A DNA stretch of 64,000 nt from Methanomassiliicoccaceae archaeon. Its GTDB lineage: Archaea > Thermoplasmatota > Thermoplasmata > Methanomassiliicoccales > Methanomethylophilaceae. This document shows positions 19,070 to 22,757 of the stretch, piece after piece. The notes beneath the pieces are model-generated. The model was not told where the DNA came from and ran no database searches. It saw nothing but the letters and a program-made list of their open reading frames with translations. The position numbers were made by a program, and so were the translations under genes. The stretch spans positions 1 to 64,000 of the forward strand of contig JAEEOP010000038.1 in NCBI GenBank assembly GCA_016284295.1, given 5' to 3'. Numbering within the stretch: position 1 is the stretch's first letter; each line of letters starts with the position of its first letter.

Positions 19070-19306
19070 ATGACGAACGAGGCCTACCGCAAGTGCAAGA
19101 CATGCAGGTTCTGCAACCACAGGGACGAAGTATGGGCCTGCGTGATGAATTCGAGATCCACAGCACCGGAGTCGACCTGCGACAGGTACCGTCCCGGATG
19201 CTGCGAGAACTGCTCCAGATACGACGGTTCCATATGCGCCCTGACCGGCGAGGAGAAGTACGAACTGGACGTCTGCACCGAGTACGATCCCTCAGGTACC
19301 CTCTGA
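19070..19306 (+). CDS. Ten-cysteine mini-protein with a tandem repeat
   Basis: A 78-residue protein with ten cysteines (9, 12, 15, 24, 37, 44, 45, 48, 56, 69). Two halves repeat the same spacing: C-x2-C-x(n)-C...C-x2-Y-x-P (CRFC...AC...CDRYRP and CENC...IC...CTEYDP). Each half could bind one Zn2+ or iron-sulfur cluster. No signal peptide is seen, so it is probably cytoplasmic. It ends 15 nt inside the converging DUF5685-like gene. I do not recognise a named family; a metal-binding or redox role is inferred from the cysteines only. Confidence 0.6.
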   Translation: MTNEAYRKCKTCRFCNHRDEVWACVMNSRSTAPESTCDRYRPGCCENCSRYDGSICALTGEEKYELDVCTEYDPSGTL

Positions 19307-20203
19307 CATCCTCTGCTTCCTGTTGGAGAGGACGTTCTTGACACTTGTTCTGGCTGTGGAACTTCCCATCATGACCTTCTTGGCCGAATCCGGGATACCC
19401 ATGTAGACGATGTTGTCGCAGATGCCTGTTCCGGCCCTCATCAGCGGCCTCACCTTGGAATAGGACGTCTGAAGGCTGCCAATCTCCCCGTTGAGCATCT
19501 CCGATAGCTCATAGACGTGCTTCATTCTGAAGTCCGCCGCGTTCGTGTAGCCTGTTTCGGGCAGCAACGGATTGTATGTGCCTTCAGTGAAGTCCTCGTC
19601 CAGGTCGTCTATCGCATCCATCAGGTACACCACCGTGCTCAGCTCCCTGAAGACGTTATCGAGATCCTCGCTGGCGTGCTCCCCTGCGATGTCCCTGAGC
19701 GCACCTATCAGGCCGTTCCCGAAGGTCCTGCCCATCAGGACGGCATCCTTGCAGCCCTGCTGTTCCAGACCCCTCAGCCTGCCGAACCCCTCACCGACCA
19801 TCCTGTCATACTCCGGGTAGAGGGAGACGGCCTTCTCTATCGCTCCTTTCAATGCCGTAGATGCAGCCTTGGACTTCAGCGACGGCTTGTCCGCATCGTC
19901 ATCCTTCAGCTCCCATTTGGTGAGGATCAGGGTGTATCCCGCCATCCTCCTCATGAGGTCCGAATCGGCCTTCGGCCTGTCCAGGACGCATATCCTCTTC
20001 GTCGTGCCCTCAAAATCCAGGACATCCCCCGCTATGGAATTCAGCAGGATCGTGTTGAAGGTCATGTCATAATTGACGGTCAGGGTGCTCCTGAGGTTGA
20101 ACCCCTGCCTCAGCTGATGGCATCCCTCGCAGTAGTACCTCCGGTAGAGCCTGTTGTCCGCAGGCGAGAGCCTGTTGTAGTAAGGGAGGGTGTACCCCAG
20201 CAT
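19292..20203 (-). CDS. DUF5685-like protein
   Basis: A 303-residue protein. The N-terminus (MLGYTLPYYNRL... then YYCEGCHQL) matches the opening of DUF5685 proteins, which have a conserved GY-x2-PY and a YC-x2-C. An acidic motif (MDAIDDLDEDF) in the middle resembles the metal-binding Asp clusters of all-helical prenyl-transferase folds. The start at 20203 is chosen so that the family motif is N-terminal; a GTG at 20224 is the longer alternative. The biochemical role of the family is unknown. It is divergent from the Cys-rich peptide gene, with 145 nt between starts, so they may share a promoter region. Confidence 0.6.
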   Translation of the reverse strand: MLGYTLPYYNRLSPADNRLYRRYYCEGCHQLRQGFNLRSTLTVNYDMTFNTILLNSIAGDVLDFEGTTKRICVLDRPKADSDLMRRMAGYTLILTKWELKDDDADKPSLKSKAASTALKGAIEKAVSLYPEYDRMVGEGFGRLRGLEQQGCKDAVLMGRTFGNGLIGALRDIAGEHASEDLDNVFRELSTVVYLMDAIDDLDEDFTEGTYNPLLPETGYTNAADFRMKHVYELSEMLNGEIGSLQTSYSKVRPLMRAGTGICDNIVYMGIPDSAKKVMMGSSTARTSVKNVLSNRKQRMSEGT

Positions 20204-20287
20204 GACTTCTCTATCGACGGTCACGGATAAAGTTTATCGCAGCGCAGGCCAGCGATACGTCGTTAATGGGATTGTACCATCCGTCAA

Positions 20288-20342
20288 ATATTATATAGGG
20301 CGAAATTGTTAGCCAGAATATCAGAACATCACTGATAAGGTG
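20288..20342 (+). promoter_or_regulatory. Promoter and ribosome binding site of the Cys-rich peptide operon
   Basis: A strong TATA element (ATATTATATA, 20288-20297) and a ribosome binding site (AAGGTGA, 20336-20342) 6 nt before the ATG at 20349. The expected transcript start near 20320 gives a short leader of about 30 nt. A proper ribosome binding site selects the ATG over the in-frame GTG at 20340, and suggests strong translation of the peptide. Confidence 0.65.
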
Positions 20343-20348
20343 AACTTA

Positions 20349-20657
20349 ATGTCCTACGATGCAGAATCCATTGAAAAACTGACAGCAATGTATGAGAGCC
20401 AATCCCCTAACGCATTCATCGCATTCTCCATGGAGGGTCTTCCCCAGGACAACGAGCATGCGGAGCGTTTTGACAAGGGTGCGGACGCGGAGCACAGCGA
20501 ACTCAGCAAGTGCGACTACTGCTGCTGCAGCGACAAGGGATACTGCAACTCATGGGGATGGCACCTCTGTGTCATCGGAACCGTCGTGGTCCTCGTGGCC
20601 TGCTGTTGCTATGCGACGGATGGCTTCTTCGGAGCCTGGCCCTACTGGCCGTTCTGA
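20349..20657 (+). CDS. Nine-cysteine peptide, candidate RiPP precursor
   Basis: A 102-residue peptide with two very different halves. Residues 1-53 are acidic and hydrophilic and carry no cysteine (a leader-like region). Residues 54-102 hold nine cysteines in 33 residues (55, 58, 59, 60, 66, 74, 85, 86, 87), including two CCC triplets. A hydrophobic stretch WHLCVIGTVVVLVACCCY spans 71-88, followed by an aromatic tail (FFGAWPYWPF). A radical SAM/SPASM enzyme follows 51 nt downstream on the same strand. This leader-core layout beside a SPASM enzyme fits a precursor for thioether-bridged peptides (sactipeptide or ranthipeptide type). No family is recognised. The alternative is a small Cys-rich membrane protein whose cysteines bind metal. 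Confidence 0.65.
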   Translation: MSYDAESIEKLTAMYESQSPNAFIAFSMEGLPQDNEHAERFDKGADAEHSELSKCDYCCCSDKGYCNSWGWHLCVIGTVVVLVACCCYATDGFFGAWPYWPF

Positions 20658-20672
20658 GATTGACGATCATCT

Positions 20673-20698
20673 CCGCCGCGTTGCATCGTGCGCGGCGG
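20673..20698 (+). promoter_or_regulatory. Stem-loop between the peptide gene and the radical SAM gene
   Basis: A perfect 8-bp inverted repeat CCGCCGCG/CGCGGCGG with a 10-nt loop, lying wholly between the peptide stop codon and the ATG of the enzyme. A GTG in frame with the enzyme (20688) is in the loop. It likely acts as a partial terminator or processing site that keeps precursor made in excess over enzyme (inference). Confidence 0.55.
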
Positions 20699-20708
20699 GA
20701 CCACCATC

Positions 20709-21830
20709 ATGAAACCCCATATCACCATAGTCATCAAACCCACACTTTTCTGCAACATCGACTGCAAACACTGCTATCACGAACCTTCCGAGAGGATCAA
20801 AGGCAACATCTCCCTGGACAGGGTCGAGAAACTCATCCGCATGGCATCCGAGGAATACCAGACCGCATGGTTCATCTGGCACGGAGGGGAACCCTTGACG
20901 CTGCCGATGTCGTTCTACAAGGAGGCCATCGGCATGGAGGAGAGGTACTTCGGCAAGGATTCCATGCGCTACGGGAACACCATCAACACCAACGGCACCC
21001 TTCTGAACAGGAGGCTGATGGCGTACTGCAGGGAGAAGAAGATCAACGTCGGAGTGTCCTACGAGGGGCCGTACAATAGCATTCTCAGGGAGGAGGATGT
21101 TGAGAAGACGCTGAAGACCCTGTCCGCCAAGGAGAACATGTACTCAGTGAGCGCTGCCGTATCCAAGGATACTGCGACCAAGCAGAAGGAGATCTACGAG
21201 TACTTCAGGGACAAGGACATAACCGTGTCCCTCTCCCCTGTAATCCCCGCAGGATGCGGAAAATGCTACGTCCCGGACACAGAGGAGTTCATCCAGGGGA
21301 GCATAGACGCCTTCGACGAATGGATGTACGACAACACGTCCAGGGTGCCCCTGATGCCCCATTATCTGTACATCCAGAACTATCTCGGCAACCCGGTCCC
21401 CTCGGACTGCGCCCATACATCCTGCCTGACCAAATGGATCTGCATGTACCCCGACGGGTCACTGTATCCATGCGCCAAGGCTTGTCCGAAGGAGTTCTGC
21501 CTCGGTAACATAGACGATATATCATCCATAGCGGATGCCTTCAAGTCCGAAGGGTTCAGGAACATCATAGCGGGATCGATCAAAAGGCGCGAGAAATGCG
21601 CCTATTGCGAGATCTACGATTTCTGCAACGGAGGGTGCAGCGTGGATGCCTGCTACGAGAACGGCCTGGAGGAGAACGGCGGCCAATCATGCGTCGCTTA
21701 CAAGAGGATATTCGCCCACGTGGCATCCGAGATCCAGCACATACTGGACGAGAAACCCGATATGGACCGCTACAACCCGTTCATAAAAGAAGCGGTGATC
21801 GGGAAGCTGATCAATCCGAAGAACGTCTAA
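20709..21830 (+). CDS. Radical SAM/SPASM peptide-modifying enzyme
   Basis: A 373-residue radical SAM enzyme with a C-terminal SPASM domain. The first 4Fe-4S site is the canonical C-x3-C-x2-C (FCNIDCKHC, about 12-19), and FIWHGGEP gives the GGE motif that binds the SAM amino group. The SPASM part carries about ten cysteines (CLTKWICMYPDGSLYPC, CAYCEIYDFCNGGC) that can hold two extra clusters, as in anaerobic sulfatase-maturing and sactipeptide enzymes. No RRE-like peptide-binding domain is obvious. It is next to the nine-Cys peptide and probably modifies it, perhaps by thioether crosslinks. ATG 20709 is preferred; GTG 20688 gives 7 more residues. Convergent with cysK, 21 nt apart. Confidence 0.85.
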   Translation: MKPHITIVIKPTLFCNIDCKHCYHEPSERIKGNISLDRVEKLIRMASEEYQTAWFIWHGGEPLTLPMSFYKEAIGMEERYFGKDSMRYGNTINTNGTLLNRRLMAYCREKKINVGVSYEGPYNSILREEDVEKTLKTLSAKENMYSVSAAVSKDTATKQKEIYEYFRDKDITVSLSPVIPAGCGKCYVPDTEEFIQGSIDAFDEWMYDNTSRVPLMPHYLYIQNYLGNPVPSDCAHTSCLTKWICMYPDGSLYPCAKACPKEFCLGNIDDISSIADAFKSEGFRNIIAGSIKRREKCAYCEIYDFCNGGCSVDACYENGLEENGGQSCVAYKRIFAHVASEIQHILDEKPDMDRYNPFIKEAVIGKLINPKNV

Positions 21831-21851: not shown

Positions 21852-22757
21852 TCAATCGTATATCCCGGTGCTCATGTACTTCTCGCCGCCGTCCGGGAGA
21901 ATCGCCAGTATGATCTTATCGGGTTCCTTCTCGGACAGGTCCAGAGCGGCCTTCACGGCCGAACCTGAGGATATTCCGCAGAATATGCCCTCCTCCCTGG
22001 CCATCCTGACCGCAGTGGAGATGGCATCGTCGCCCTTGACCTGGACGACATCATAAAGGAGATCCCTGTCGAAGATGCTCGGGATGAAGTTCGCACCGAT
22101 GCCCTGGATCTTGTGCGGACCGGCCTTCCCCTCGGTGACCAGGGGGCTCTCGGCAGGCTCCACGCCTATGACCTTCGCTTTTGCACCGGCATCCTTGAAT
22201 GCCATCGCGAGACCGCAGGCGGTACCGGCGGTGCCGAAAGCGGAGATCACATAATCAACATCAGGCAGGTCCCTCAGGATCTCCTTCCCTGTTCCGACAC
22301 GGTGGGCCACGGCGTTCATCGGGTTGTCGAACTGCCCGCAGACCCATCCCCCGACCTTCTCGGCGATCTCGTCGGCCTTCCTTATCGCGCCTGCCATGCC
22401 CTCCGCACCAGGAGTGAGCACGACCTCTGCGCCGTAGGCCCTCATCGACTGTATGCGCTCCTTGGACATCGTGTCAGGCATGACGATGACCGCATTGTAC
22501 CCTCTTACGGCGGCGATCATGGCTATCGCTATGCCGGTGTTCCCGGATGTGGGCTCCACTATGGTGCCCCCTTCTTTCAGGACACCCCTGGCGACCGCAT
22601 CGTCTATCATCGACAGGACGGCGCGGTCCTTGATGGAGCCTCCAGGGTTCCCCCTCTCGACCTTGACGTAGACCCTGGTCCCCGCCTTGGGCAACCTGTT
22701 CAGACGTACTATGGGCGTTTCTCCGATCGTTTCAGTGATGTCCCTGTAAACTGCCAT
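21852..22757 (-). CDS. cysK: Cysteine synthase (O-acetylserine sulfhydrylase)
   Basis: A 301-residue PLP enzyme that makes cysteine from O-acetylserine (or O-phosphoserine) and sulfide. The PLP lysine is in GNPGGSIKDRA (Lys43), the substrate loop is PTSGNTG, the phosphate-binding glycine loop is SAFGTAGTACG (usually GTGGT), and the C-terminal Ser loop is CGISSGSA. Length and order are those of CysK. It converges on the radical SAM gene, 21 nt apart. Whether it serves general cysteine supply or is linked to the Cys-rich peptide cannot be said. An AGGTG motif lies just before the ATG. Cystathionine beta-synthase is a less likely reading, because the protein lacks a CBS domain. Confidence 0.9.
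   Translation of the reverse strand: MAVYRDITETIGETPIVRLNRLPKAGTRVYVKVERGNPGGSIKDRAVLSMIDDAVARGVLKEGGTIVEPTSGNTGIAIAMIAAVRGYNAVIVMPDTMSKERIQSMRAYGAEVVLTPGAEGMAGAIRKADEIAEKVGGWVCGQFDNPMNAVAHRVGTGKEILRDLPDVDYVISAFGTAGTACGLAMAFKDAGAKAKVIGVEPAESPLVTEGKAGPHKIQGIGANFIPSIFDRDLLYDVVQVKGDDAISTAVRMAREEGIFCGISSGSAVKAALDLSEKEPDKIILAILPDGGEKYMSTGIYD

Follow-up and report, generated by a model that had tools for sequence, protein, structure and literature searches.

A cassette of three genes, encoding a small cysteine-rich peptide, a radical SAM/SPASM enzyme and a protein of the Pfam family DUF5685, was analysed in a 64,000-nucleotide stretch of DNA (the window) from a Methanomassiliicoccaceae archaeon (assembly GCA_016284295.1, contig JAEEOP010000038.1, positions 1 to 64,000), whose genome measures 1.86 Mb. 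Judged by sequence comparison, the cassette is family-wide in Methanomethylophilaceae, and DUF5685 is as constant a partner of the peptide as the radical SAM enzyme. The original prediction had described a system of peptide and radical SAM enzyme; that pair is indeed linked, but the equally constant third member was overlooked. From the gene set, its conservation and order, the motifs and the pairing of DUF5685 with cysteine-rich tails, all of which can be read directly from the sequences, we infer a substrate role for the peptide, a crosslink, prenyl transfer and a membrane location. Our favoured interpretation, held at somewhat less than even confidence, is thus a maturation cassette in which a membrane-retained peptide resembling the ribosomally synthesized and post-translationally modified peptides (RiPPs) would be modified by both proteins, with DUF5685 tentatively acting as a prenyltransferase of the ComQ/PalQ kind on the peptide tail.

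The peptide gene (20349..20657, forward strand) encodes 102 residues that run from an acidic N-terminal half through a C-Y-CC motif, a hydrophobic stretch and a CCCY motif to a WPYWPF end. All nine cysteines, including two CCC triplets, fall within residues 55-102, the last 48 of the chain, a placement that by itself has a probability of 7e-4, and the N-terminal 54 residues contain no cysteine and carry a net charge of -8, which bears out the two halves first described. A hydrophobic 19-mer that begins at residue 72 reaches a mean Kyte-Doolittle value of 2.13, matched by 2 of 2000 shuffles, and across 28 peptide sequences the mean over 19 residues ranges from 1.78 to 2.27; the earlier proposal of a membrane-resident product was judged plausible. 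A comparison of codons in all 66 pairs of 12 sequences, one from the window and 11 from relatives, shows that the open reading frame (ORF) is protein-coding and under purifying selection: codons with a single difference are synonymous in 1447 and non-synonymous in 694 cases in the peptide frame, against 483:2018 and 457:1966 in the two shifted frames, and changes fall mostly on the third codon position (2391, compared with 1075 on the first and 972 on the second).

Conservation within the core is concentrated on a few positions. Among 62 distinct cores C55, C59, C60, C86, Y88, W100 and P101 are invariant, C85 (56/62), G92 (60/62) and the final phenylalanine (55/62) are nearly constant, and position 99 is tyrosine, phenylalanine or tryptophan in 60. 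Four of the cysteines are thus fixed among homologues, but the CCC triplets vary, as position 58 is cysteine in 23 and position 87 in 50 of the 62 cores. W97 of the WxYWPF end is replaced by tyrosine in three genera, with additional cysteines close by, and also in some further relatives, and by glutamate or glycine in the two copies of genome G071. The peptide matched no NCBIfam model at E<=1 and nothing above a cut-off in Pfam, hence no J domain was scored in it.

The peptide and the enzyme travel together. A search with the peptide sequence found matches in 29 of 60 near genomes (28 of 31 within the genus), and a profile search matched 68, all from a single family, of the order's 147 genomes. 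With the enzyme profile 78 of the 147 gave a match at E<=1e-80, and all 68 peptide-matching genomes lie within these 78, so that no peptide homologue without a radical SAM partner was found. Ten enzyme genomes had no peptide match; in G006 the enzyme gene is cut by the contig start, and the other nine (G123 among them) have after all a diverged cysteine-rich peptide with a WPF end directly upstream of the enzyme, missed by the profile. In a first set of loci the peptide adjoins the enzyme in 29 of 30, the remaining one being a contig end. A wider set of 116 loci, which covers all genera found and counts many contigs twice, contains the enzyme in 114, the two others being contig ends; the peptide lies directly upstream in 112 of these 114, and both exceptions are the same contig, G085, where the peptide is present in a reading frame without a stop at the usual place.

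DUF5685 is found in 82 of the 147 genomes and in 77 of the 78 with the enzyme, the single miss being G105. Its gene is divergent, and in 38 of 40 loci its near end is at most 650 nt from where the enzyme gene starts; it is more distant in two loci of genus g4 (2.2 and 4 kb) and lies about 19 kb away in G014. Five genomes have DUF5685 without an enzyme match (G069, G091, G004, G032 and G057), of which the genes of G069 and G091 reach the contig edge and that of G057, a genome of another family, is a bacterial-type copy. The absence of the cassette from nearly complete genomes (e.g. G114, 97%, and G031, 96%) suggests that it is dispensable. Genome G071 holds two complete cassettes (L080 and L081) with diverged peptides. 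The relatives are assigned to Methanomethylophilaceae, Methanoplasma, Methanomassiliicoccaceae and Thermoplasmata, among others, and their named sources are ruminant rumen, omasum, colon or rectum and horse faeces, with one species name hinting at termites; the cassette thus belongs mostly to gut-associated archaea.

The enzyme gene (20709..21830, forward strand, 373 residues) starts 51 nt after the peptide stop, as originally stated. It passes the cut-offs of Pfam Radical_SAM (44.7 bits, cut-off 29.5) and of the SPASM domain model TIGR04085 (37.7 bits, cut-off 27). Of the 61 NCBIfam models that matched, 25 were listed, and among these the generic SPASM domain alone passes and no specific maturase model reaches its own cut-off; the top models are those of the dynobactin enzyme DynA (149.8 bits, cut-off 450), a sulfatase maturase (140.9, cut-off 349.45) and TIGR04083 (116.7, cut-off 300), and GrrM/OscB, labelled cyclophane-forming, is also among the models listed. 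DynA forms crosslinks other than thioethers. The Cx3Cx2C motif, GGEP and the SPASM cysteines are invariant across 21 aligned enzymes. The nearest solved structure is the anaerobic sulfatase-maturating enzyme (anSME) 4k36 (profile E 1.4e-35). In anSME the aspartate following YPC has a catalytic role, and since all 21 aligned enzymes have alanine, serine or glycine there, an identity as anSME was ruled out. Membership of a clade with a known unrelated substrate, which had been named as a possible objection, was not found, given this residue and the lack of any specific NCBIfam cut-off reached among the models listed. In one genome, G032, the single enzyme copy (L130:7099-8247, reverse strand) has no Cx3Cx2C and reads FIWTGFEG in place of FIWHGGEP; Pfam recognizes in it the SPASM domain alone, and the neighbouring peptide and DUF5685 genes are both open. 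This protein, seen in one genome, is a candidate radical SAM pseudo-enzyme.

The DUF5685 gene (19292..20224, reverse strand; PF18937, 140.5 bits) carries CExC...C, DDxxD and DxxxDxxxD motifs. Its conserved start is probably the methionine at residue 8, at about 20203, and the gene starts about 125-146 nt upstream of the peptide start in the divergent direction. Residues D108, D112, D203, D207 and D211 are invariant in 31 aligned sequences. AlphaFold models of the window protein (31 alignment rows) and of a bacterial-type copy (28 rows) reached mean predicted local distance difference test values of 88.8 and 85.4, and the Foldseek matches listed against the PDB were prenyl-diphosphate or prenyl-transfer enzymes in 46 of 50 cases for the former (best E 0.037) and in 50 of 50 for the latter (best E 0.0075), many of them being repeat entries for the same enzymes, with template modelling scores up to 0.53. 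The aspartate motifs end the fourth and eighth helices of the model, as they end helices D and H in trans-prenyl synthases. The models thus make an isoprenoid-synthase-like fold likely, and this fold together with the aspartate motifs suggests binding of a prenyl diphosphate, for which donors are likely at hand, as the host genome has three polyprenyl synthase matches. In the literature DUF5685 was encountered by name only, in a list from C. difficile; the family occurs in archaea, Bacillota, Actinomycetota and one Thermotoga control genome.

Outside Methanomethylophilaceae, DUF5685 was followed in 11 loci, namely all ten plasmid and phage-collection records found and G057. A C-terminal cysteine string is present at nine of these, in five on a neighbouring J-domain protein and in four on DUF5685 itself. 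The five partners, whose J domain was identified with Pfam, are encoded directly downstream in G057, Pusillibacter, Subdoligranulum and two faecal contigs and end in a cysteine-rich C-terminus such as CCTQMLCLNLLCNCCCCGGGF; the four copies with the string on their own chain are actinobacterial. The remaining two loci, both faecal contigs, have neither a J-domain partner nor a cysteine tail on DUF5685. In one of them DUF5685 is followed directly by a relative (37% identity) of the transmembrane-protein gene that stands after the J-domain protein in Subdoligranulum, and by eye the second is arranged alike. DUF5685 of both lacks the CxxC, the third cysteine and the middle aspartate of motif 2, the other aspartates being partly kept; as these contigs are related to each other, loss of tail and motif may have been one event.

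The background frequency of such tails was estimated from 180 non-overlapping ORFs of at least 100 residues in the window and 13 loci chosen for holding the system. At least seven cysteines in the last 40 residues occur in six of the 180, and all six are DUF5685, an adjacent J-domain protein or the peptide. At four to five cysteines there is no separation, as two J-domain proteins (L139, L129) and two peptides stand amid other ORFs. The filter, which gives precedence to the longest ORFs, removed from the top list the copies from Nocardia farcinica and Tsukamurella as well as the window's own peptide. Two further features of these loci were noted: three bacterial-type loci encode upstream a small membrane protein whose end resembles a zinc ribbon (CPxC...CPKC; L138:2077-2487, L139:401-796 and L129:6188-6646), the one of the three that was tested having no Pfam family above the cut-off, and in G057 (L129:8863-10599) a gene named Hsp70-like by eye follows that of the J-domain/cysteine-string protein. 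A literature search on bacterial cysteine-string or cysteine-rich DnaJ proteins returned nothing on point.

In the proposed cassette the peptide would be the substrate, its acidic half resembling a leader and preceding a membrane-seeking cysteine-string core that ends exactly at W-P-F. The radical SAM/SPASM enzyme would crosslink this core, either by a thioether at cysteine or by an aromatic C-C or C-N link. DUF5685 would act on the same C-terminal tail, as it apparently does on the cysteine strings of bacterial J-domain proteins, most likely by prenyl transfer from polyprenyl diphosphates, its conserved CxxC...C perhaps serving to handle thiols or a metal, and the finished peptide would remain in the membrane. 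The closest precedents are ComQ-ComX and PalQ-PalX, with which the cassette shares aspartate-rich motifs, an adjacent small peptide with an invariant tryptophan near its C-terminus and, as far as the predicted models go, an isoprenoid-synthase-like fold. ComQ and PalQ are enzymes of the isoprene synthase superfamily that prenylate peptide tryptophan (PMC10853753, PMC13290415), PalQ modifies a C-terminal tryptophan and, in a model, receives the peptide end in its active site (PMC10853753), and archaea are reported to attach archaeol to a cysteine within a C-terminal lipobox (PMC13290415). Unlike ComQ and PalQ, DUF5685 forms a Pfam family of its own, has a CxxC...C feature and showed no sequence relation to the synthases with which it was compared; its partners carry cysteine strings, and the archaeal cassette adds a radical SAM enzyme. 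The invariant W100 (62/62 cores) fits tryptophan prenylation, but the other DUF5685 partners read lack such a conserved tryptophan and share cysteine instead, which fits S-alkylation, a chemistry that would be new for that fold.

Several observations weigh against this interpretation. According to a review, every characterized ComQ-type enzyme modifies tryptophan (PMC13290415), whereas what DUF5685 partners have in common is cysteine. Neither DUF5685 model has a Foldseek match at E<=0.001, and the two models are not independent because their alignments share most sequences. Sequence homology to squalene or polyprenyl synthases went undetected by profile comparison: when DUF5685 was set against squalene synthases and against polyprenyl synthases from this order, hhalign gave probabilities of 0.10 and 0.53 percent, which is not significant, and the control with an unrelated radical SAM profile, at 1.54 percent, scored above both. 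The actinobacterial tails are hydrophilic (CDGCGCCDC) and thus closer to metal ligands than to lipid sites, and the G057 J-domain protein has only four cysteines among its 40 C-terminal residues. The tested neighbours in the window include no protease, and the retention in G032 of peptide and DUF5685 beside a radical SAM protein without its motif implies that the radical step is dispensable at times.

These points also bear on what the cassette may be instead. The original prediction placed it with thioether-forming peptides, and in its plain form, an unlikely one in our estimate, the enzyme would join cysteines to alpha or beta carbons as in sactipeptides or ranthipeptides while DUF5685 would merely be a chaperone or regulator. 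The cassette shares with those classes a cysteine-rich core adjoining a SPASM radical SAM enzyme, and the third-best model, TIGR04083, is a peptide-modifying SPASM family of methanogens, whose partner family is likewise a small cysteine-rich peptide. The enzyme nevertheless scores 116.7 bits where TIGR04083 demands 300, no specific maturase model among those listed reaches its cut-off and the peptide has no NCBIfam match; moreover, the cassette differs from sactipeptides and ranthipeptides in its DUF5685 partner, which matches the enzyme in constancy and whose motifs follow cysteine tails elsewhere. Searches of the literature for TIGR04083 and for Methanomassiliicoccales or Methanomethylophilaceae with radical SAM enzymes gave nothing on point. 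What stands of the thioether proposal is therefore the linked pair, while the invariants include W100-P101 and the near models DynA and GrrM make crosslinks of other kinds. That latter evidence would suit a cyclophane-type peptide, in which the enzyme would link the aromatic residues of the WxYWPF end, with the cysteines carrying lipids or forming disulfides: W100 and P101 never vary, position 99 is almost always aromatic, and DynA is the best model at 149.8 bits. Its cut-off, however, is 450 bits, and W97 gives way to tyrosine in three genera and others and to glutamate or glycine in the G071 copies, which leaves this version quite improbable.

A metal role for the CxxC...C of DUF5685 and for the cysteine strings is a serious rival, although as a complete account, with a metal or cluster bound by the string at the membrane and loaded by DUF5685, and the SPASM protein tailoring or binding the peptide, it too seems unlikely to us. 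It would accommodate the joint disappearance of the CxxC, the third cysteine and the cysteine tail, the abundance of cysteine, glycine and aspartate in the actinobacterial tails, the survival of the SPASM part beyond the loss of the radical SAM motif in G032 and the relatives of a cation-efflux gene of the window in 27 of 40 loci. Against it stand the predicted fold of DUF5685, which resembles prenyl-diphosphate enzymes, and the hydrophobic cysteine stretch and WPF end, which are unlike usual metal sites. The same G032 locus, with a degenerate radical SAM protein retained beside an intact peptide gene, would be explained if the peptide were an unmodified small membrane protein, a structural partner within a complex of DUF5685 and the SPASM protein; given that none of the 21 aligned enzymes departs from the radical SAM cysteines or from GGEP, this is very improbable.

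The peptide gene has its own expression signals, as had been noted: a TATA-like element, TTATATAG, at 20291..20298 (forward strand), with comparable A/T boxes recognized by eye 5' of the relatives, and a Shine-Dalgarno sequence, GGTGA, at 20339..20343 (forward strand). An inverted repeat (ATCAG...CTGAT; 20320..20336, forward strand) in the 5' untranslated region, the weaker of two stems, adjoins the latter; a stem at shuffle p<=0.05 is present in 11 of 35 distinct leaders, with differing stem sequences, and the other 24 fall short. Compensatory changes among relatives were also seen in this stem. A second element, a hairpin with the loop TGCATCGT (20673..20698, forward strand), is located between the peptide and enzyme genes and is partly supported by covariation. 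In 13 relatives chosen by eye for this loop, one row of which (L004) is out of register, 92.2% of cells are paired and 19 cells show a double change, each matched by 0 of 500 shuffles; two of the five measures are unexceptional (the number of doubly changed pairs, reached by 65 of 500 shuffles, and pair types, by 280 of 500), and the folding energy is ordinary (z -0.85). The remaining relatives are without the hairpin in this form. It is no genome repeat, since its pattern has one exact match in its own genome, and Rfam yielded no family, only a sub-threshold match (E 0.14) on the opposite strand. Both stems may govern how much peptide is made relative to enzyme.

Among the neighbouring genes, the one converging on the enzyme (21852-22757, reverse strand) had been called a cysteine synthase, a putative assignment that fits its match to PF00291 (244.6 bits), the family of a pyridoxal phosphate (PLP) enzyme. 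The window's ten neighbours outside the cassette have relatives in 4 to 27 of 40 cassette loci, the PLP enzyme in 21 and the cation-efflux gene in 27; these counts concern the window's neighbours only and, with some contigs short, are minimum values. Co-conservation at this level was too weak for the PLP enzyme or the other neighbours to be included in the cassette. A cysteine-rich ORF of 78 residues (19070-19306, forward strand), whose end overlaps the 3' end of the DUF5685 gene, has a relative in 25 of the 40 loci and no Pfam family. A viral or mobile origin of the cassette was rejected, as relatives of the peptide and DUF5685 were absent from the viral collection in a pattern-seeded search and PHROGs held no family for either, the enzyme matching radical SAM or Fe-S families; four unverified faecal records named 'Bacteriophage sp.' hold DUF5685 relatives. 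A role as a defence system was likewise rejected, since PADLOC gave the enzyme viperin models alone, and weakly.

The wider meaning lies in the company that DUF5685 keeps. In eukaryotes the cysteine-string J-domain protein CSP/DNAJC5 is modified by palmitoyltransferases, and the DUF5685 partners of Bacillota and G057 are likewise J-domain proteins ending in a cysteine string; the Methanomethylophilaceae peptide differs in having no J domain, and the modifier would be DUF5685 rather than a palmitoyltransferase. It is conceivable, if rather doubtful at present, that DUF5685 is the founding member of a class of enzymes, prenyltransferases or others, that finish cysteine strings at C-termini across two domains of life. 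Its targets would be J-domain chaperones in Bacillota, its own tail in Actinomycetota and, in Methanomethylophilaceae, a membrane peptide that stands alone; there an added radical SAM enzyme would yield a crosslinked and lipidated product. If this is true, it would be a prokaryotic counterpart of the lipidation of cysteine-string proteins, and in such a membrane peptide radical SAM chemistry would meet isoprenoid chemistry, a combination of which we know no case. For DUF5685, previously without known function, the pairing with cysteine strings provides a concrete and testable class of substrates, and the archaeal cassette supplies a short, easily expressed peptide. The larger point is thus the apparent link between DUF5685 and cysteine strings, which points to a so far unstudied finishing of cysteine-rich protein ends.

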